This document shows, piece by piece, positions 2,789 through 22,240 of a stretch of 34,145 bases of DNA. Source of the stretch: Clostridiales bacterium. Lineage in GTDB: Bacteria; Bacillota; Clostridia; Lachnospirales; Lachnospiraceae. The stretch's first letter is position 1; each line of letters opens with the position of its first letter. Location: NCBI GenBank assembly GCA_021202655.1, contig JAJQCO010000202.1, positions 1-34,145 on the forward strand. Direction: 5' to 3'. The notes under the pieces were generated by a model that did no database searches, had not been told where the DNA came from, and saw nothing but the letters and a program-made list of their open reading frames with translations. A program made the translations under genes and the position numbers.

Positions 2789-4567
2789 TCACTCCTCCTC
2801 TTTCTCTGAGAATCTGGACATAAAAGTTTTTCTGGATGACTGATAAATTGTTTTTCCACAGAAGGTCATGGATAAGGCTTTATCCTCCGGGCATTTATGG
2901 ATACATTCGCCGCACAGCATACAGTCGACGGTCTGCACATTTTCCTTCTCTCTTTCGGTATAAATACTCTTAATCCGCATCGGGCAGGCGTCATAGCAGG
3001 CTCCGCATTCTGTACAGGCCGTACAGTCCTTCTTTAGCTTAAACAGATTAAACCGTTTGAAAAGCCCCATCAGATACCCCATCGGGCAGATAATGCACCA
3101 GAAGCGTTTGATAAAATAGCTGCCGACCAAAATCACGACTGCGAAAAAACCGCCGAGATATAAATTGGTCCAGAAACCGCCCTGCGCGGTTGTAAATACT
3201 TTCAACGGGCAAATGTCGCAGAAATCACCGCCTGTAAAAATAAAACCCAGAAACAGTACGATCCACACCCATTTAATCGGCTGCAAAAATCGGTTGATCC
3301 GATCCGTCACCACAATCAGGCGAATATGCAGCGCCCGGCGCAGCTTATCCATCAAGTCCTGCAAAAGACCTGCCGGGCAGAGGAATCCGCACAGAATACG
3401 TCCTAAGAAAATAAAGCAGAATAACAGCGTCCCCAGGAATGTGAGCGCATAGATCAGATTCAGCACGGGAAAGCCTTCCCCATATCTGCTGAACAGGTAA
3501 GGAAGATGGGACAAATAATAGCACGGCACCTCCGCCACCTGATCGAGATTAAACGGACAGCTGAATACCGGTATGGCGATCTCATTCCACAGCTGTCCCT
3601 GATGAATCAGCTTTCCGGCATAGGTCCACAGGAACATACCGGCAAACAGGCACAGCCATCGTATCACCAGAAATTTTGACGTCGTCTTCTGATGCAGTGT
3701 ATTCGGATAAATGCCGACGCTCTCTCTGGAATAAATTTTGTATTCAGGATTGTTCTTTTCTATTCGGTTTCTGATCAGATGCACCGCCACGATGCCAATG
3801 CCCGCCAATGCGAAGACGAGCAATAACGGCAGCTGCGCTCTCCAGAAATGTACGGAAAAGTACGAATAATCCTCCAGCGCGTACTGCATACGGTACATTG
3901 TTTCCCCGTCCGGCGAATAGGAGGCCGTAAAACCCTCCCGTATATCCCGGATGGAGAGTCCGTCAATCCAGCCATTTTCATCCGTTCGGTATGTGTTCGT
4001 CTCCCCATTATAGGATATTACCGTTATTTCCGCGTCTGTCAGAATTTCGTTTTCATAATAAACCATGATGTACTTGCGCTCGGTAAACACAAGCTCAAAC
4101 GGGATTTCCTCCGACAAGAAGCTTTGCGGCGCAGGGTTAAAAGCATTCGAGCCAAAATCGGCGCGCGCATAGTCATAGACCTGCTCTGTCTCTCCGTCCC
4201 CGTCAATGTCCATCTCTGCCACAGGGAGCGCTGCTATAAAATGTCCGAGAGAGTCCTCCTGAATCGGATTTTCACTGCCATGCGTTACACAGATCTCTCC
4301 TGTCTGCGTCAGCGCATAGACAGTCAGGCTTTCCTCCAAAATTCCCTCGTCAATGCCGTAAAAAACTTCCTTTCCGTCGTCTCCATAAGAAAACCATACG
4401 GAGGTATCCGCGAACAGAGGCTTTTCTTCCTCCGATTTTGCATACTGATAATCCGAAACCTCCATGTGATAATCATAGAGGACAAAATTCGTTGCGAAAA
4501 AGGCTGACACAAGCAGGAACGCGCAGACAGCACAGACCACCGCTGTCCCGATTTTCCGTTTCTTCAT
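2789..4567 (-). CDS. NapH/NosR/CcoG-like membrane polyferredoxin with N-terminal extracytoplasmic domain
   Basis: CGFLCPAGLLQD, CDICPLK, CIICPMGYLMG and two C-terminal 4Fe-4S motifs (CTACTECGACYDACP, CMLCGECIHKCP). Internal ATG at 4567 (MKKRKIG) overlaps the upstream stop as ATGA. Confidence 0.85.
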   Translation of the reverse strand: MKKRKIGTAVVCAVCAFLLVSAFFATNFVLYDYHMEVSDYQYAKSEEEKPLFADTSVWFSYGDDGKEVFYGIDEGILEESLTVYALTQTGEICVTHGSENPIQEDSLGHFIAALPVAEMDIDGDGETEQVYDYARADFGSNAFNPAPQSFLSEEIPFELVFTERKYIMVYYENEILTDAEITVISYNGETNTYRTDENGWIDGLSIRDIREGFTASYSPDGETMYRMQYALEDYSYFSVHFWRAQLPLLLVFALAGIGIVAVHLIRNRIEKNNPEYKIYSRESVGIYPNTLHQKTTSKFLVIRWLCLFAGMFLWTYAGKLIHQGQLWNEIAIPVFSCPFNLDQVAEVPCYYLSHLPYLFSRYGEGFPVLNLIYALTFLGTLLFCFIFLGRILCGFLCPAGLLQDLMDKLRRALHIRLIVVTDRINRFLQPIKWVWIVLFLGFIFTGGDFCDICPLKVFTTAQGGFWTNLYLGGFFAVVILVGSYFIKRFWCIICPMGYLMGLFKRFNLFKLKKDCTACTECGACYDACPMRIKSIYTEREKENVQTVDCMLCGECIHKCPEDKALSMTFCGKTIYQSSRKTFMSRFSEKEEE

Positions 4568-5781
4568 ACTGCCACCCTTCCCTTCCTGTATCTGCGCTGG
4601 TTCAGAATTTCCGAAAATGCCTCCATACGGACGCGAAGCTGTTCGATGTCCTGATAATTGTAATCGGTTTCCAGCCGGAATACCGGAATATCCCACTTTT
4701 CAAACAGCTCCTCAAAACGCTCTAACTCAAAATCATATTCAATCTGCCCTTTCAGCACATGATAAACAACGCCGTCTATCCTTTGTTCTGTCAGCAGCTT
4801 TTCAACTCGCTCATAAAGTGCATCGTTCTTTACATAGGCCGAAGACGCATCACTTTTATAAAAAATATCCGCCTCATTTACTCCTGACAGGTATTCCTCT
4901 CTGAAACCGCCTTGCATGGAAAGCGTCGTGTAATCGATCTGGTCGCATAACGTAAGCCCTGCTTCCTCAATCAAAAACGGAACCTTATAGTTTGGAAAAT
5001 AGATTGGCGAGCCAAGCAGCAGAACGCTGCCCCTCTCATCTTTTTGAATCTTTGGTTCTCTCCGCAGCCTTTCTGTCAGGCTGCGCAGCCGTGAGCACCA
5101 TTCCGAAAGATCCGCCGTGCAGTAATAACTGCCCAGGACAAACATTCTGATAACTCCGCTCAGCTTGTCCTGCGATATATGCCTGAAAGCCTGTATCTGC
5201 CTTTTTGCTGTCAGAATCTGTGCCTGCGATTTTCGCAGAGACCGATTTGTCATCGGCCTTTTCAAATGCAGAGAGATTGCATCTCGACATACTTCGTATT
5301 GCCGTCTCCATTCGAGATATGACTGCTCATCCTTTACGGGCGGGAAATGGCAGGTCTGTACCTTGTATCCCCTGGATTTCAGGATATAAGCCAGTTTCCT
5401 TGTACTGTCGCTGACCAGAGGGATCAGAATCAATGCATTCCACGCGAAACCGGAGAGAATATAGCCGAGTCCGGATCTGCTGACCGGATCCGTGTCTCTC
5501 GGAACCATGTCATCCGCCCACATGGAGCTTGCCCGGCTCCCTCCCAAAATCCAGTAAGGCATCTTCCCCGATATAAGCACCAGCTCCTCCGGAATGTTGG
5601 AGCCGATCACAACCAGAGTCGACTGATTCCTTTCAAAATCAGTGAGATAATGATTTCTGACACATTTCTCGAAATATTGCAGCTCCTCATATACGGGCAT
5701 GATTTCTACAAGCCTTTGCAATCCATCGTCGACTTCTTTTTTATATGTATGAAGGTCCATTCTGTTTTCCGTGTCCGGCAT
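4564..5781 (-). CDS. Cysteine-depleted paralog of the 2-hydroxyacyl-CoA dehydratase (HgdB-like) family
   Basis: Collinear with the 1502..2785 product (DDMVPRDTDPV vs DDYIPRDACPL; RIDGVVYHVLKGQIEYDFE vs HIQGVIYHVLRGCLIYDYE; DYNYQDIEQLRVRMEAF vs DYNEEDVEQLRVRIEAF); GGAGGTGG RBS. Confidence 0.85.
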   Translation of the reverse strand: MPDTENRMDLHTYKKEVDDGLQRLVEIMPVYEELQYFEKCVRNHYLTDFERNQSTLVVIGSNIPEELVLISGKMPYWILGGSRASSMWADDMVPRDTDPVSRSGLGYILSGFAWNALILIPLVSDSTRKLAYILKSRGYKVQTCHFPPVKDEQSYLEWRRQYEVCRDAISLHLKRPMTNRSLRKSQAQILTAKRQIQAFRHISQDKLSGVIRMFVLGSYYCTADLSEWCSRLRSLTERLRREPKIQKDERGSVLLLGSPIYFPNYKVPFLIEEAGLTLCDQIDYTTLSMQGGFREEYLSGVNEADIFYKSDASSAYVKNDALYERVEKLLTEQRIDGVVYHVLKGQIEYDFELERFEELFEKWDIPVFRLETDYNYQDIEQLRVRMEAFSEILNQRRYRKGRVAV

Positions 5782-5806
5782 GGCAATCCACCTCCGTTTG
5801 CCGCGT

Positions 5807-6070
5807 TCAAAAAGAATGCTCGATCAGATATTTTTCAACCTTTTGCAGTTGCTCCGTCAGATCGGTTCCATCCGCCATTAAGACCCTTTCTTCCGGCGCT
5901 TTCGCCAGTGCGTCTCACTTTCCGTTTATAATTCCAGTTTTTGAACGGAATCTTACAGGCACATCCTATACATGGTGGCCGCTTTGCCCCGCACCCTTCG
6001 CAAAGGCGTCGATCATCTGTTTTGTATTGCCCCTGGGACGGGGACTTCCGTTAAGGACCAGAATATTCAT
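5807..6070 (-). pseudogene. Degraded NADPH-dependent FMN reductase/flavodoxin-like gene
   Basis: ATG at 6070 with AAAGGAGGTG upstream reads MNILVLNGSPRPRGNTKQMIDAFAKGAGQSGHHV then TAG (5966-5968). Another frame reads ...ALAKAPEERVLMADGTDLTEQLQKVEKYLIEHSF and stops at 5807. Confidence 0.65.
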
Positions 6071-6087
6071 CCTGACTTCCACCTCCT

Positions 6088-7506
6088 TTAATACCAGTCG
6101 TGTTTTTCGTTCCTGTCCAGAGCGTTGATCTGCTCCATTTCCTCATCCGTCAGTTCAAAGCCAAACAGATCAAGATTTTCTCGAATATGATCCGGGTTAC
6201 TGGAGCCAGGTATCACTACAACGCCTTTCTGCAAATTCCACCGCAGGATTACCTGCGCAGAAGAAACGCCGTGAGCCTCAGCGATAGCGGAAATGGTTTC
6301 ATCCCCAAGCAGCTCTGCGGTATGCCCACGCCCACCAAGCGGATACCAGCCCTGCACCACAATGCCAAGTGACTGGATATAAGGGATCACATCATTTTCC
6401 TGATAATAGGGATGGATTTCGTTCTGCACCAGCGCCGGGGTAATGTTCACCTGGGGCAGAAACTCCTCCAGCTCCTTCACATACCAGTTGGACAGGCCAA
6501 TGGAATGCACCTTGCCTTCTGCGACAGCCTGTTCCAGCGCCAAATACGCTTCTACATCGCCGTCTCCCGGATGGTGCAGGAGAATCATGTCGATATAATC
6601 AAGCCCCATTTTTTCCAGTGCTTCGTCAATAGCATCGGCGGCATAGCTGTACTGGTTGGGATAGAGCTTTGTGATTACGAAAATCTCTTCCCGCGGCACA
6701 TCCGAATCCCGGACAGCCTGTCCGACAGCCGCCTCATTGCCGTACATATAGGCGGTATCAATCAGTCTGCCGCCCGCTTCCAGCAGCGCCGCAATGGAAA
6801 CGGCACATTCCTCATCGGTCAGGCTGTATGTGCCCAGCCCCATAATGGGCATTTCATAGCCGCTGTTCAACTGCACGGTCTTTGTCTCAAAATTAAATTC
6901 TCTCACGATATTACCCTTGTTTTCTTCAGATTCCCGTAATGACAGGCTGTCCACCCACTCATTCACGTCATTTTCGGATGCGCTCCCCGAAAACCGCCGC
7001 CCGTCCTTCCATGTAACGCTGCCAGAACAGAGCGTGTGCAGATTTTCAGCGCTGGAGCCAATGCCGCTGCTGTGGGAGGTACAGAATGGGATGATCGTCA
7101 CGTCAGCCAAATCATAACTTTCCAAAAAGGTGCTGATGATTCGCGGCGCCTGCCCATGCCAGATGGGATAACCGAGGAAAATCACATCATACTGTTCGAT
7201 GTTCTCTACACTGCCGGAGATTGCAGGACGGGCGGATGAATCTGACTGCTCCTGATCGGCACGTCCGCCGGTATAATAGGCCAAATCCTCCTCCGTATAA
7301 GGGTCTTCCGGCACAATTTCGTAACTGTCCGCACCGGTTTCACCTATAATCCACCGGGCAATCTGCTCTGTCGTGCCGGTACAGGAAAAATAGACAACCA
7401 GGATGCTGCTTTCAGAATCGGATGACAGCTCCGCACCTTCGGAACTGCAAGCCGCCAGCATGGAAATCATGCAAACCAAGAGAGTTAATACTATCGATCG
7501 CTTCAT
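6088..7506 (-). CDS. Lipoprotein: flavodoxin domain fused to aldo/keto reductase domain
   Basis: Signal peptide with lipobox (MISMLAACSS), flavodoxin motif ILVVYFSCTGTTEQIA, AKR motifs MPIMGLGTYSLTDEE, GGRLIDTAYMYGNE, LLHHPGDGD, VIPGSSNPDHIREN. Confidence 0.88.
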   Translation of the reverse strand: MKRSIVLTLLVCMISMLAACSSEGAELSSDSESSILVVYFSCTGTTEQIARWIIGETGADSYEIVPEDPYTEEDLAYYTGGRADQEQSDSSARPAISGSVENIEQYDVIFLGYPIWHGQAPRIISTFLESYDLADVTIIPFCTSHSSGIGSSAENLHTLCSGSVTWKDGRRFSGSASENDVNEWVDSLSLRESEENKGNIVREFNFETKTVQLNSGYEMPIMGLGTYSLTDEECAVSIAALLEAGGRLIDTAYMYGNEAAVGQAVRDSDVPREEIFVITKLYPNQYSYAADAIDEALEKMGLDYIDMILLHHPGDGDVEAYLALEQAVAEGKVHSIGLSNWYVKELEEFLPQVNITPALVQNEIHPYYQENDVIPYIQSLGIVVQGWYPLGGRGHTAELLGDETISAIAEAHGVSSAQVILRWNLQKGVVVIPGSSNPDHIRENLDLFGFELTDEEMEQINALDRNEKHDWY

Positions 7507-7507
7507 G

Positions 7508-8122
7508 TTATCCGTCCTCCTTATCAATTTTTTTGATTATTCGTGCTGGTACGCCGCCTACCACTGTAAAAGGCGGTACATCTTTTGTCACGACTGCCCC
7601 TGCCGCTACAACCGACCACTCTCCGATAGAAACTCCGGGGAGAACCGTCGCATTGGAACCGATCCACACATGAGCGCCGATTTTGACAGGTGCGTAGTGG
7701 TTCTTCCGGTTCTGCCCTGGAGACAAATCATGGTTGATGGTTGCCAATACCACGTTGTGGCCAAGCATCGCACCGTCTCCAATTTCGATACCGCCCTGAT
7801 CCTGGAAGTGACAGCCCGAGTTGATAAAAACGTCTCTCCCAATATGCGTGTTCTTTCCAAAATCCGTGTAGAATGGCGGAAACAGTCGAAAGGAGTTATC
7901 TATTCGCTGCCCTGTTAGGCGGCTCATGATTTCCCTGATTTCATCCGGAGTATGGTATCGGTTGTTTAATTCCATACTGATGCGAAGCGCCTCCTGATAT
8001 AGTGTATCAGCATAGGCATCGCATTCGGCACGATCCTTCGTTTCGTCATAGTAATCTGCAATGATGTCCTCAACCGTCAATTTTTGATAAAAACGTTGGA
8101 ATTCATTATTCGCTTCCGGCAT
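7508..8122 (-). CDS. Maltose/galactoside O-acetyltransferase-like sugar acetyltransferase (hexapeptide repeat)
   Basis: [40 protein letters not shown] and [23 protein letters not shown]...[14 protein letters not shown]. Confidence 0.92.
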
Positions 8123-17025: not shown

Positions 17026-17958
17026 TTAATCTGCGAACAACGGGGTGGAAAGATACCGTTCGCCCGTATCGGGCAACAGAGCTACGATCGTCTTCCCCTT
17101 GTTCTCCGGTCTCCTGGCCAGCTGAATGGCAGCCCATGCAGCGGCGCCGGAAGAAATACCTACTAATACGCCTTCCTTCTTACCGATCCTCTTGCCCGTG
17201 TCAAAGGCATCCTTGTTTTCTACAGTGATGATCTCATCATAAACTCCTGTATCCAACACATCGGGAACGAAACCGGCTCCAATCCCCTGGATCTTGTGGG
17301 AGCCGGAAATTCCCTTGCTCAGCACGGGAGAATCGGCAGGCTCTACCGCCACTACCTTCAGATCAGGATTCCGGCTCTTTAAATATGCGCCGACGCCGGT
17401 GATCGTCCCGCCGGTACCGATGCCTGCCACGAAAATATCCACCTTGCCATCGGTATCCTCCCAGATTTCAGGGCCGGTCGTCGCCTTATGGACGGCAGGA
17501 TTAGCAGGATTGACAAACTGCCCGGGAATAAAACTGTTGGGGATTTCCCTGGCCAGCTCATCTGCCCTGGCAATGGCTCCCTTCATGCCCTTAGCGCCCT
17601 CGGTCAGAACCAGCTCCGCGCCATAGGCCTTCATCAGCTGGCGTCGCTCCACGCTCATGGTTTCGGGCATCACGATAATGATGCGATAACCGCGGGCAGC
17701 CGCCACGGAAGCCAGGCCAATTCCTGTGTTGCCGGAGGTTGGTTCAATAATAACCGCACCGGGCTTCAGAAGCCCCTTCTCTTCGGCGTCGTCAATCATG
17801 GCCTTGGCAATGCGATCCTTTACGCTGCCTGCGGGGTTGAAATATTCCAGCTTGGCCAGAAGCTTTGCCTCCAGCTTCTCCTCCTTTTCCAGGTGAACCA
17901 GCTCCAGCAACGGAGTCCTTCCAATCAGCTGGTCTGCGGATGTATAGATCTTGCTCAT
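17026..17958 (-). CDS. cysK: Cysteine synthase (O-acetylserine sulfhydrylase)
   Basis: [62 protein letters not shown]. Confidence 0.95.
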
Positions 17959-17991
17959 AATTTTTTTCCTCCAATCATGTTTTAACCAATT

Positions 17992-18022
17992 AAAAAACCG
18001 GAAGCCTGAAACAAGCTCCCGG
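17992..18022 (-). terminator. Intrinsic terminator between the Cys-rich leader ORF and cysK
   Basis: Minus-strand RNA CCGGGAGC-UUGUUUCAG-GCUUCCGG followed by UUUUUU (8-bp stem with one G-U). Confidence 0.8.
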
Positions 18023-18049
18023 ACAAACGGCTGTGAGAATGCTGATCAT

Positions 18050-18187
18050 CTAATCATGCATCGTATCGAGGCGACCAGTTATGACGCAACATGCGCATGA
18101 CCGCACCCCAGCCATATCATATGCCCGGGAGTCCCTCATTCGACAACACATGGTGAGATTCCTTTTTTGAGAATAAACATGAATCAT
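18050..18187 (-). CDS. Candidate regulatory leader peptide, Cys-rich, upstream of cysK
   Basis: Unlisted 45-codon ORF MIHVYSQKRNLTMCCRMRDSRAYDMAGVRSCACCVITGRLDTMHD. ATG at 18187 preceded by AAAGGAGACGGAGACG; an in-frame ATG at 18151 also has an AAGGA RBS. Confidence 0.7.
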   Translation of the reverse strand: MIHVYSQKRNLTMCCRMRDSRAYDMAGVRSCACCVITGRLDTMHD

Positions 18188-18245
18188 CGTCTCCGTCTCC
18201 TTTCCCCATTATTTCTTCTCATCAGATTCTGAATTCGATGTGCCT

Positions 18246-18274
18246 ATCATATCACCATTCGCCTACTATGTCAA
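18246..18274 (-). promoter_or_regulatory. Promoter of the leader-cysK-ssu operon
   Basis: Minus strand TTGACA (18269-18274)-N17-TATGAT (18246-18251); TAGGCGAAT in the spacer. Confidence 0.75.
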
Positions 18275-18313
18275 TAGGTTTAATAAGCGGTTTTCAAAAA
18301 ATTTTTCAGTGTC

Positions 18314-18343
18314 TTGATTTGTCAACCCGCCCTGCGTTATAAT
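18314..18343 (+). promoter_or_regulatory. Promoter of the rrf2 (pseudo)gene
   Basis: TTGATT-N18-TATAAT, with AATAGGCAAA overlapping the end of the -10. Confidence 0.5.
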
Positions 18344-18369
18344 AGGCAAAAGCGGAAAGAGGTAATCCT

Positions 18370-18765
18370 ATGATTTCAACAAAAGGGCGTTATGCGCTCC
18401 GGCTTATGATAGATATCGCCGAGCATCCGAACGAGGACTGTATTCCATTAAAAGACATAGCAGAACGACAGGAAATATCAAAAAAATATCTTGAAATTAT
18501 CGCGAAGGAGCTGGTTAAAGGTAAGCTGATATCCGGCCACGGCGGACGCGGCGGCGGTTATGTCTTATGACGACAGCCGGAAGAATATACAAACGGAGAG
18601 ATCCTTACACTGACTGATGGCTCTCTTGCCACGGTCGCCTGCATTACAAAAGATGCACCTCCCTGCAGCAGATCCTCTGTTTGCAAAACGCTGCCTCTCT
18701 GGAAGGAATTCGACAAAATGGTATGTGATTTTTTCTATGGAAAGACCCTGGTCGATTTGCTGTAA
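18370..18765 (+). pseudogene. Rrf2-family transcriptional regulator interrupted by an in-frame TGA
   Basis: MISTKGRYALRLMIDIAEHPNEDCIPLKDIAERQEISKKYLEIIAKELVKGKLISGHGGRGGGYVL, TGA (18568-18570), then same frame RQPEEYTNGEILTLTDGSLATVACITKDAPPCSRSSVCKTLPLWKEFDKMVCDFFYGKTLVDLL*. Confidence 0.9.
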
Positions 18766-18834
18766 AAAAGGCGCCTGAATTGTTCAAAACCGTCAGACCG
18801 CCGGGAGGCGGAACGGCGGATCCCTGGCTGCGAC

Positions 18835-20118
18835 TTACTTTTCAACGACTGTGATCGTATTTTTCAGCATTCCCATCCAACAGGAATATGTATACGTTCC
18901 CTCTTCGACCGGTGTAAATTCTATGATGACTTCACCTGCGGTAAGCTTTACCTGTTGGTGAAACGCTGACAGTGTAATCTCATTATTGCAGCCGTTCAGA
19001 TTCTTCTCATCTACCTCCATCGTCCACACGACAGGAATCCCTGCAGTAATCTGAATATCGTCGTAGCCGTTGGCATGGAGTGAGGTAGTCACATACTGGA
19101 CATCTCCGTCAATGGTTGAAACGATAGCTCCATCTGTGTTTTTCTTTGTTGATGAAACAGCAAAGCCTGTCAGGGCAAGATTATTCTGTATCATAAAAAT
19201 TCCCATGATAACCAACAGGATGGAACCGACCTGAAGCATACGCTGCCGCCAATGCATTTTCAGCATCCCGGCTGCCAGGCCAAATGTAAAGACAAGAGGA
19301 ATCGTACCCAGACAAAAGAAAAACATGGACAGAGCTCCGGCCAGCATACTGCCGCTGGCGATGGCGTAGACCTGCATGGATTGCAGCGGCCCGCAGGGCA
19401 TCAAACCATTTGCCAGACCCACTGCAAAGAAGCTGTGTTTTCCCACACTTTGTATTTTGGCAGAAAGCTTCCCGATCAGTCTCGGAAAAAAACGAACAGG
19501 CAGAGAAATTCCTCCCAGCATATGAATGCCCATGAGCAGCATAAACCCGCCTGCAACCAGGCCGATTACGCCTCTTACCCGTAGGGTAATGGCCGCTTTT
19601 TCGCCAATCAGACCCAGAATACCGCCGATCAGAGTGTAGCTGGTAAGCCGCCCAAGATTGTACAGGATACTGCGGCGCAAGGGTTTTATATTTCCGGAGG
19701 AAATGCTCTGAGCCAGATTTAATCCTCCGCACATGGCGATACAATGGACACTCGTCAACAAGCCGATCACGAACAGGGCAACATAACTCATTCGTTCTTC
19801 GCTGATCGTCGGAATACTCTGAAATATCTCCAGCCATCCCATGTGCCGGGCGATCATATAAACTCCCAGAATGATAACCAGCATAGCCGCCGTATCCCGG
19901 GCCTTTTTTTCGTTTTTCGCAACTCCGTAGCCAGTCTTTTGAATTGTTTCAATGATGACGCTTTCTGTGCAGGGAGTGTTGAACTCAACTGTCAATTCAC
20001 CTCTACTGCGATTTGCGGTTACGGACTGTACGCCTTCCAGTGCCGATACCGCTCCTTCCAGTCGGCGCTCACAACCGGAGCAGGTCATGCCCGCAACGTA
20101 AAAAATAACCTTGCTCAC
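18835..20118 (-). CDS. HMA domain - TauE/SafE-like membrane domain - cupredoxin-like domain fusion protein
   Basis: GMTCSGCERRLEGAV (HMA), TSVHCIAMCGGLNLA and GLANGLMPCGPLQSMQ (SafE-like), C-terminal YTYSCWMGMLKNTITV (cupredoxin-like). Confidence 0.88.
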   Translation of the reverse strand: MSKVIFYVAGMTCSGCERRLEGAVSALEGVQSVTANRSRGELTVEFNTPCTESVIIETIQKTGYGVAKNEKKARDTAAMLVIILGVYMIARHMGWLEIFQSIPTISEERMSYVALFVIGLLTSVHCIAMCGGLNLAQSISSGNIKPLRRSILYNLGRLTSYTLIGGILGLIGEKAAITLRVRGVIGLVAGGFMLLMGIHMLGGISLPVRFFPRLIGKLSAKIQSVGKHSFFAVGLANGLMPCGPLQSMQVYAIASGSMLAGALSMFFFCLGTIPLVFTFGLAAGMLKMHWRQRMLQVGSILLVIMGIFMIQNNLALTGFAVSSTKKNTDGAIVSTIDGDVQYVTTSLHANGYDDIQITAGIPVVWTMEVDEKNLNGCNNEITLSAFHQQVKLTAGEVIIEFTPVEEGTYTYSCWMGMLKNTITVVEK

Positions 20119-20132
20119 GAATGTCGCCTCCT

Positions 20133-20624
20133 TTAAAACTGCTTCCAGTTGGAAAAGCGGTATGCGTTTTCTTTCAAAAAGGAGTCGGAAACCGTAATGA
20201 TTCCGTTTTCTTCGTTGTAATCATCCTCCGTAATCGGAACAGGGTTGCAGCCTCCGCCTGTAAGCCCTATTTTATCGGATGAGAAGCGATTCCCGCAGTT
20301 CTGGCAGACAAAGTCGTCGCCGTCCTGTTCAAAATAAGCATAGGGAGATCCGTTGCAAACCTGACAGGTATTCATTGCGAGACGAACGGTATCGTCCGAA
20401 GCGAGAACCGCAAAAATCTCAACATCCGTTTCATCAATTGTCGTATCATAATAACTGGCGCTGGTGCTTATATCTTCTACACGGATTTCGATTCCGGTTT
20501 CTGTTGTACCGGATACATTTTCCTGCATTTCCCCTGACTCTGTTTCGGAAGAACAACCGACCATAACAATCGCCATAGCTGCTGCAATAACTCCTGTGAC
20601 GAATCGTAATCCTTTTTTGCGCAT
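20133..20624 (-). CDS. DUF2318-type lipoprotein
   Basis: Lipobox MVGCSS; TCQVCNGSPYAYFEQDGDDFVCQNCGNRFSSDKIGLTGGGCNPVPI. Confidence 0.85.
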   Translation of the reverse strand: MRKKGLRFVTGVIAAAMAIVMVGCSSETESGEMQENVSGTTETGIEIRVEDISTSASYYDTTIDETDVEIFAVLASDDTVRLAMNTCQVCNGSPYAYFEQDGDDFVCQNCGNRFSSDKIGLTGGGCNPVPITEDDYNEENGIITVSDSFLKENAYRFSNWKQF

Positions 20625-20641
20625 GATTGATACCTCGACTT

Positions 20642-21394
20642 TCATTTAATCAGATCCTTTATAACCTCTCCCGCCAGGATCAGACCGGCTACAGATGGAA
20701 CGAATGCAACGCTTCCTGGAATATCTCTTCGCCGCGTACATTTTCGTTTTGTCCCAGGTGGGCAGATACAGTGCGTCCGACAGCTGATCTCCATATCATC
20801 CAGAGGACGGATGCTTTTTTCCGTGGAATACACCACCTTCAACGCGCGTATCCCGCGCTTTCTGCATTCATGCCGCATCACCTTTGCCAGCGGACATACC
20901 GTTGTTTCGTAAATATCTGCCACCTGAAATTTTGTGGGATCGAGCTTATTTCCGGCTCCCATACAGCTGATGACCGGCACGCCGCATCTTTGCGCCTGTT
21001 CGATAATTTCGAGCTTTGCCGTAACGGTATCTACTGCGTCTACAACGTAGGAATATTGCGAAAAATCAAATTCGTCTGCATTCTCTGGAAGATAAAAACA
21101 CTTCCGGACTTCCACCTTTGCGTTCGGATTGATCTCGAGTATCCGTTCCTTCATGACATCTGCTTTATACTGGCCGACCGTTTTTCTGCTTGCAATGATC
21201 TGCCTGTTTAAATTGGTCAGGCAGATTTTATCATCGTCAACCAGCACGAAGGAACCGACTCCGCTTCGGGCAAGCGCTTCCACTGCGTATCCGCCTACGC
21301 CGCCGATGCCGAATACTGCGATGCTGGAGGTCGATAAGCGTTCCATTCCGTCTTTGCCCAGCAGAAGCTCTGTCCTTGAAAACTGATTCAGCAA
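20642..21394 (-). CDS. tcdA: tRNA threonylcarbamoyladenosine dehydratase (ThiF/E1-like)
   Basis: AVFGIGGVGGYAVEALARSGVGSFVLVDDD, NLNRQI, VVDAVDTVTAK, PPGTKRKCTRRRDIPGSVAFVPS. Confidence 0.9.
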   Translation of the reverse strand: MLNQFSRTELLLGKDGMERLSTSSIAVFGIGGVGGYAVEALARSGVGSFVLVDDDKICLTNLNRQIIASRKTVGQYKADVMKERILEINPNAKVEVRKCFYLPENADEFDFSQYSYVVDAVDTVTAKLEIIEQAQRCGVPVISCMGAGNKLDPTKFQVADIYETTVCPLAKVMRHECRKRGIRALKVVYSTEKSIRPLDDMEISCRTHCICPPGTKRKCTRRRDIPGSVAFVPSVAGLILAGEVIKDLIK

Positions 21395-21409
21395 TGTGTT
21401 GCCCTCCCG

Positions 21410-22240
21410 CTATTTTTGCTCCTCAAGCGTCTCATTCATACTTCCGGTTCGGTAGCCCAGCAGATCCAATGTGACATAGGAAAACCCAAAGGACTTGAAC
21501 TCTGCATAAACGGTTTTCCTCACATCCTCCTGCATCAGCTTTTCAAACTCCTGCGGCATAAGTTCGATACGAGCAATGCTGCCGTGAATACGCACACGCA
21601 CTTGTCGAAATCCCAGATCGAGTAATAGCTGCTCCGCCTTATCTACCATTTGCAGCTTTTCTTCCGTGATGGTCTCTCCATATACAAATCGTGAGGACAG
21701 GCAGGCAAAGGACTGCTTGTTCCAGGTTGGAAGGTTAAACTCCCTGGACAGGCTGCGTATCTCCTCTTTGTTCAGCCTGGCATACCGCAATGGGCTGGCA
21801 ATTCCAAGCTCTTTTACGGCAATCAATCCCGGACGATAATCACCGTTATCGTCCATATTGGAGCCTTCGGCGACTGCCGCAATATGACGCTCTTTTGCCA
21901 GGGCAAGAATTTTTTCAAACAGCTCTCGCTTACACAGATAGCATCGATTTTTCGGGTTCTGCCGAAATCCTTCAATGTCCAGTTCCTCTGATGTGACTAC
22001 AAAATGCCGCACATGGAATTCGTCGCAAAAAGCTTTTGCCTCATCCAGCTCTCTTTTGGGGAAAGAGCAGGAGGACGCCGTTACCGCGATCACACGATCT
22101 CCCAGAGCTTCCTTCGCCGCATATAGCAGGAACGTAGAATCTACGCCGCCGGAAAAGGCGACGGCAACGCTTCCCATACTTTTCAGGTAGTCCTGTAATT
22201 TCTGATATTTCATGGATAAATTTTGTCCCATATCACTCAC
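21410..22240 (-). CDS. larE: ATP-dependent sulfur transferase LarE (three-cysteine type)
   Basis: VAFSGGVDSTFLLYAA PP-loop, NRCYLCKRELF, AEGSNMDDNGDYRPGL, SFACLSSRFVYG. Confidence 0.92.
   Translation of the reverse strand: MSDMGQNLSMKYQKLQDYLKSMGSVAVAFSGGVDSTFLLYAAKEALGDRVIAVTASSCSFPKRELDEAKAFCDEFHVRHFVVTSEELDIEGFRQNPKNRCYLCKRELFEKILALAKERHIAAVAEGSNMDDNGDYRPGLIAVKELGIASPLRYARLNKEEIRSLSREFNLPTWNKQSFACLSSRFVYGETITEEKLQMVDKAEQLLLDLGFRQVRVRIHGSIARIELMPQEFEKLMQEDVRKTVYAEFKSFGFSYVTLDLLGYRTGSMNETLEEQK

Follow-up and report, generated by a model that had tools for sequence, protein, structure and literature searches.

A conserved gene set of some gut Clostridia that suggests a double-cubane enzyme with one metal-free half

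Background

In the characterised members of the family to which the proteins described here belong (DCCP, BzdNO and HAD), each of the two subunits of the dimer has a cluster. The DCCP homodimer holds one double cubane per subunit, BzdNO carries one double cubane and one [4Fe-4S]-OH2 cluster, and HAD carries one [4Fe-5S] and one [4Fe-4S]-OH2 cluster; the ligands of the [8Fe-9S] cluster in BzdN are Cys36, Cys73, Cys100, Cys263, Cys293 and Cys327 (PMC11971306). DCCP reduces acetylene, hydrazine and azide, and the physiological meaning of these activities is unclear (PMC11971306).

A conserved half that is free of a cluster would offer a natural way to ask what the second half does, and whether one double cubane is sufficient. 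The gene set analysed here, which is conserved in some gut Clostridia, suggests an enzyme of two subunits, one of which is metal-free. Among open-licence papers, no publication was found on a Cys-less HGD-D paralog or on the cassette that encodes it.

The gene cassette

The window, i.e., the whole stretch of DNA that was analysed (34,145 nucleotides of contig JAJQCO010000202.1 of a Clostridiales bacterium), contains five tightly packed genes on the minus strand, in the order A, NapH-like, B, activase and DsbD-like. A (4564-5781) encodes a 405-aa HGD-D (PF06050) paralog, recognised by profile match, alignment to B and predicted fold. It is followed by the gene for a 592-aa NapH-like membrane ferredoxin (2789-4567; Pfam and NCBIfam matches) and by B (1502-2785), which encodes a 427-aa HGD-D protein with all six double-cubane ligand cysteines, as judged from its PF06050 match and its alignment to DCCP and BzdN. 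The last two genes encode an ATP-dependent activase (705-1505; BcrAD_BadFG / CoA_E_activ), which scores 235.6 bits against TIGR00241 (cut-off 125.4) and 194 bits against PF01869, and a 224-aa DsbD-like membrane protein (34-708), which is kept in the cassette and is without a Pfam match of its own; its ortholog in locus L111 matches PF13386 (DsbD_2, 48.6 bits).

The stop codon of A overlaps the start codon of the NapH-like gene (ATGA), the NapH-like gene and B are separated by 3 bp, and the B/activase and activase/DsbD-like junctions are 4-bp overlaps. An ORF check found A and B intact on the minus strand where an earlier reading of the letters and their ORFs (the sequence-only reading) had placed them, and its assignment of both to the same operon agrees with these junctions and with the NapH-like gene lying between the two. 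A and B are the only HGD-D matches in the 3.0-Mb, 251-contig genome.

Directly upstream of A lies a decayed remnant of an FMN-reductase/flavodoxin-family gene (5790-6085, minus strand), of which a longer open copy of 174 aa is found at the corresponding place in locus L016. Next to it, a flavodoxin domain is fused to an aldo-keto reductase domain (6088-7527, minus strand); relatives of this gene are common near the cassette. Farther away (17026-22240, minus strand), sulfur-related genes were recognised by eye, namely cysteine synthase-like, HMA/DsbD-like/cupredoxin-like fusion, ThiF-like and LarE-like ORFs. Neighbouring genes were considered as a guide to function and set aside: flavodoxin/aldo-keto reductase, acetyltransferase and FMN reductase genes recur often, yet they are generic. 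In 25 loci, which are most of them, a LysR gene is located divergently upstream; the DCCP unit of Calderihabitans is likewise reported to contain a LysR-like gene (PMC7306483).

Cysteines, cluster ligands and fold of A and B

A aligns to B over its full length (BLASTP 159 bits, E 7e-49, 28% identity over 405 columns), and the collinearity of the two products, which had previously been proposed by eye, is thus confirmed from end to end. The agreement is highest in the last 70 residues, with 50% consensus identity. Both proteins score above the PF06050 gathering cut-off of 28.4 bits (A 137 bits, B 307 bits).

B contains ten cysteines (positions 70, 89, 108, 129, 138, 140, 304, 336, 338 and 371) that are invariant among the 24 B orthologs examined, and A has a cysteine at none of these ten positions. 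The sequence-only reading had claimed that A lost all six conserved cysteines. The loss itself stands, and all the substitutions quoted for it are present in A, but the count does not: seven of the ten cysteines were named, while C129 and the C336/C338 pair, in which C338 is a presumed ligand, were missed. In the A family as a whole (36 rows), nine of the ten positions are never occupied by Cys, and position 124, corresponding to C138 of B, is Cys in two rows; one further A-type sequence (G242) also has Cys there.

Replacement cysteines elsewhere in A may be ruled out. The six cysteines that A does have (positions 40, 144, 165, 221, 229 and 279) are not universal among its orthologs, several of which contain only two to four cysteines in total. 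No alternative set of conserved cysteines was found in the 36 A-family rows, and no A ortholog retaining the ligand cysteines was found in the ortholog survey.

The six ligands of BzdN align to C70, C108, C138 or C140, C304, C338 and C371 of B, the third being ambiguous by two residues, with the alignment to DCCP favouring C138. Since all six align to cysteines, B should bind a double cubane, as far as alignment can tell. The corresponding residues in A are G60, D98, S124, Y284, S313 and Q346, none of which is Cys. The other HGD-D proteins found have either six of the six ligands (DCCP-type) or mostly three (Had-type), and only the A clade has none, or one in a few rows. Against the NCBIfam double_cubane model (NF040772, cut-off 350 bits), B scores 335.6 bits, just below the cut-off, and A scores 112.1 bits. 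A therefore falls outside the DCCPs by both its ligands and its score, while B has the six ligands by alignment and misses the score narrowly. Nor does A qualify as a HadB/BzdO-type catalytic subunit by its ligands, for it keeps none of the three cysteines that bind the [4Fe-4S]-OH2 cluster.

The fold of A was predicted by AlphaFold2 from a 30-sequence alignment (pLDDT 88.3, pTM 0.90). In a comparison of the model with the PDB, 20 chains were matched at E ≤ 0.001, all of them DCCP, HadBC, BzdNO or MbdON, the top match being DCCP (TM 0.80-0.83). According to the model, A is a protein in which the ligands are gone and the whole two-domain HGD-D fold is kept, in line with the earlier claim of a retained fold.

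Distribution, phylogeny and selection

A scan of GTDB genomes yielded 35 A loci, labelled mostly Lachnospiraceae, Oscillospiraceae or Clostridia, and whole-genome searches raised the number to about 40. Nearly all loci with enough contig exhibit the cassette of A, NapH-like, B and activase genes, usually together with the DsbD-like gene, and in most cassettes A is the first gene. Heterodimeric HGD-D enzymes are marked by two paralogs whose genes lie together with that of an activase, and A and B display this arrangement.

When cassette-type B is defined by a score of at least 575 bits (other DCCP-type proteins score at most 330 bits), A is present in 13 of the 14 sampled genomes that carry it. 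The sole candidate for a B without A (G793) was not accepted as such; the 6.2-kb contig that carries its B breaks off within the NapH-like gene. In one genome (G312), A was detected and B was not, the contig with A being 3.5 kb long and ending in the NapH-like gene, and one locus (L033) has A and a truncated NapH-like gene with no B within 8 kb. In L042 (8001-9160), the first part of A continues directly into the last part of B, as though the intervening DNA had been deleted or the contig misassembled. A search of 399 genomes of the phylum revealed no additional clear A-type protein in other classes, and in the best 29 other loci from this search the full-length ORFs all have six of the six ligands.

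In a tree of 89 HGD-D proteins, including the distant A sequences of genomes G102 and G340, all A sequences form one clade (100/100) that groups with B (100/99); the remaining DCCP- and Had-type proteins are placed elsewhere. The tree tool gave a warning of long branches joining. Because A is one clade, grouped with B and apart from the other double-cubane proteins, the ligands were probably lost once in the A lineage.

Both genes are under purifying selection, with dN/dS values of 0.14-0.20 for A and 0.06-0.11 for B, and A diverges faster than B. The distances of A and B are correlated (r 0.93), although linkage alone would also give such congruence. The six ex-ligand columns of A have a mean conservation of 0.88, compared with 0.66 for A as a whole (p 0.009). 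Among the replacing residues, G60, D98 and S313 are present in 27 of 27 sequences, Q346 and S126 in 26 of 27, and Y284 and S124 are variable among A orthologs. D98 and Q346 are kept even in the remote compact form described below.

That A is merely a decaying or strain-specific duplicate might be argued from the cassette deletions in a few loci (L027, L041 and L042). Such an origin is ruled out by the orthologs in many species, the dN/dS values, the single old clade and the fixed replacing residues, and its probability is practically nil. The description of A as a selected cluster-less paralog has accordingly held up: its orthologs are without the cysteines throughout, and A itself is intact in this genome, where the gene directly upstream has decayed to a remnant.

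The near-invariant residues at the ex-ligand positions would also suit an A in which conserved Asp, Ser, Tyr and Gln hold another cofactor or metal where the cluster used to be. Y284 and S124 vary, however, and no HGD-D protein is known to bind one there; we regard such binding as very improbable. It is also unlikely that A stands outside the final enzyme, as a scaffold or chaperone for the assembly of the cluster of B or as a regulator or sensor. Its first place in most cassettes and its faster divergence would be consistent with such roles, but no A-type partner was found for other double-cubane proteins in the genomes searched, and A, having no conserved thiols, would be a poor cluster carrier.

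Membrane partners

The NapH-like protein consists of an extracytoplasmic beta domain, a Fer4_5 membrane part and a C-terminal 2x[4Fe-4S] ferredoxin domain (Pfam, NCBIfam), and it is the probable electron donor. The predicted structure of the protein is of moderate confidence (pLDDT 69.7) and its PDB matches are weak, the best being Zcp (target TM 0.41-0.43), so that the model was given no weight. The long forms that were aligned share an invariant pair of cysteines, C337/C349, located between membrane segments. In two loci (L050 and L205), the extracytoplasmic domain is apparently encoded by a separate gene adjoining A.

Two forms of the cassette may be distinguished. The extended cassette has the long NapH-like protein with the C337/C349 pair and usually the DsbD-like gene. 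The compact cassette (L112 and L113) has a NapH-like protein of 234-237 aa, in which C337 is without a counterpart and C349 is aligned to a Cys in a doubtful part of the alignment, and neither locus showed a DsbD-like gene next to it. That the compact form has no counterpart of C337 and no such neighbour gives at most a hint that the DsbD-like protein acts on the pair. A divergent Crp-family gene adjoins both compact cassettes (L112:1960-6606 and L113:5761-6471), and ferredoxin genes and an hcp-like gene (hybrid cluster protein; by reading, a single case) are near that of L112.

Proposed function

We consider it likely that A and B are the two subunits of an ATP-dependent double-cubane reductase and that A is its cluster-free half, because A has none of the ten cysteines, B has the six ligands, and the predicted fold of A, its linkage in the cassette and purifying selection are all maintained. 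A would bind B as its partner, because solved relatives with two HGD-D paralogs form heterodimers (PMC11971306). The two would pair pseudo-symmetrically, as BzdN/BzdO and HadC/HadB do, in a heterodimer in which A would provide the other half of the dimer interface and a docking platform. The NapH-like protein would pass electrons to the activase, and ATP hydrolysis by the activase would drive them onto the [8Fe-9S] cluster of B. The emptied pocket of A, with its near-invariant lining, may hold the substrate or brace the fold. Among the three roles that the sequence-only reading had offered, that of a partner subunit is best supported and that of a substrate-binding half is possible, while there is little to favour a scaffold on which the cluster would be assembled.

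A stronger form of the cluster-free-half explanation is that A is the catalytic, substrate-binding half, with the emptied cavity as the active site and the double cubane of B storing and delivering electrons. The ex-ligand residues D98, S313, Q346 and S126 are polar as well as near-invariant, and the persistence of D98 and Q346 in the compact form points the same way. In BzdO, moreover, the substrate ring is accommodated where a sub-cluster has been lost, and the double cubane of BzdN is thought to be an electron store (PMC11971306). These residues may, however, serve the structure alone; in DCCP the reaction takes place at the protein's own double cubane, and without a cluster in A the electrons would have to cross the interface straight to the substrate. 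We rate this stronger form as less likely than not. On this reading, A would have given up its metal, and its vacated cavity would have become a substrate site reduced across the interface by the ATP-charged cubane of B, with electrons supplied by a membrane NapH/DsbD-like relay.

Returning to the cluster-free half as such, the cassette, which recurs in many Clostridia, apparently couples ATP-driven low-potential chemistry to a membrane ferredoxin.

Comparison with known systems

Duplicated cluster proteins that have specialised and are served by an ATP-driven electron donor are familiar from NifEN and NifDK, which offer an analogy to A and B; NifEN, however, keeps its cluster sites. NapH/MauN-type ferredoxins are matched by the membrane gene at 77.5 bits, well under the 213-bit NapH cut-off; unlike these ferredoxins, the cassette protein has an additional N-terminal domain, and inspection of the window by eye showed no napA-like gene.

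The closest solved relatives are DCCP and DCCP-R (PDB 6eno, 7yyl and 7yzm), to which B scores 219-221 bits and A 48-49 bits. DCCP, like the cassette, is paired with an ATP-dependent activase-type reductase; unlike DCCP, the cassette encodes a second, ligand-free paralog and membrane partners. BzdNO (PDB 8s02) and MbdON (9g87), of class I benzoyl-CoA reductase, likewise have two HGD-D paralogs and an ATP-driven activator, with the double cubane in BzdN, but BzdO has three ligand cysteines and a [4Fe-4S]-OH2 cluster, whereas A has kept none. HadBC (2-hydroxyisocaproyl-CoA dehydratase, PDB 3o3m) is likewise a heterodimer of HGD-D paralogs with an activase, and both of its subunits, unlike A, retain a cluster.

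In terms of ligand cysteines per subunit, DCCP is 6+6, BzdNO is 6+3 and HadBC is approximately 3+3, and A·B, judging from the alignments, would be 6+0. Single-cluster variants of BzdNO made by Cys-to-Ala replacement are reported to have been unstable, and according to the authors such variants would be needed for the assignment of the EPR signals (PMC11971306). An enzyme composed of A and B would be a naturally occurring one-cluster form.
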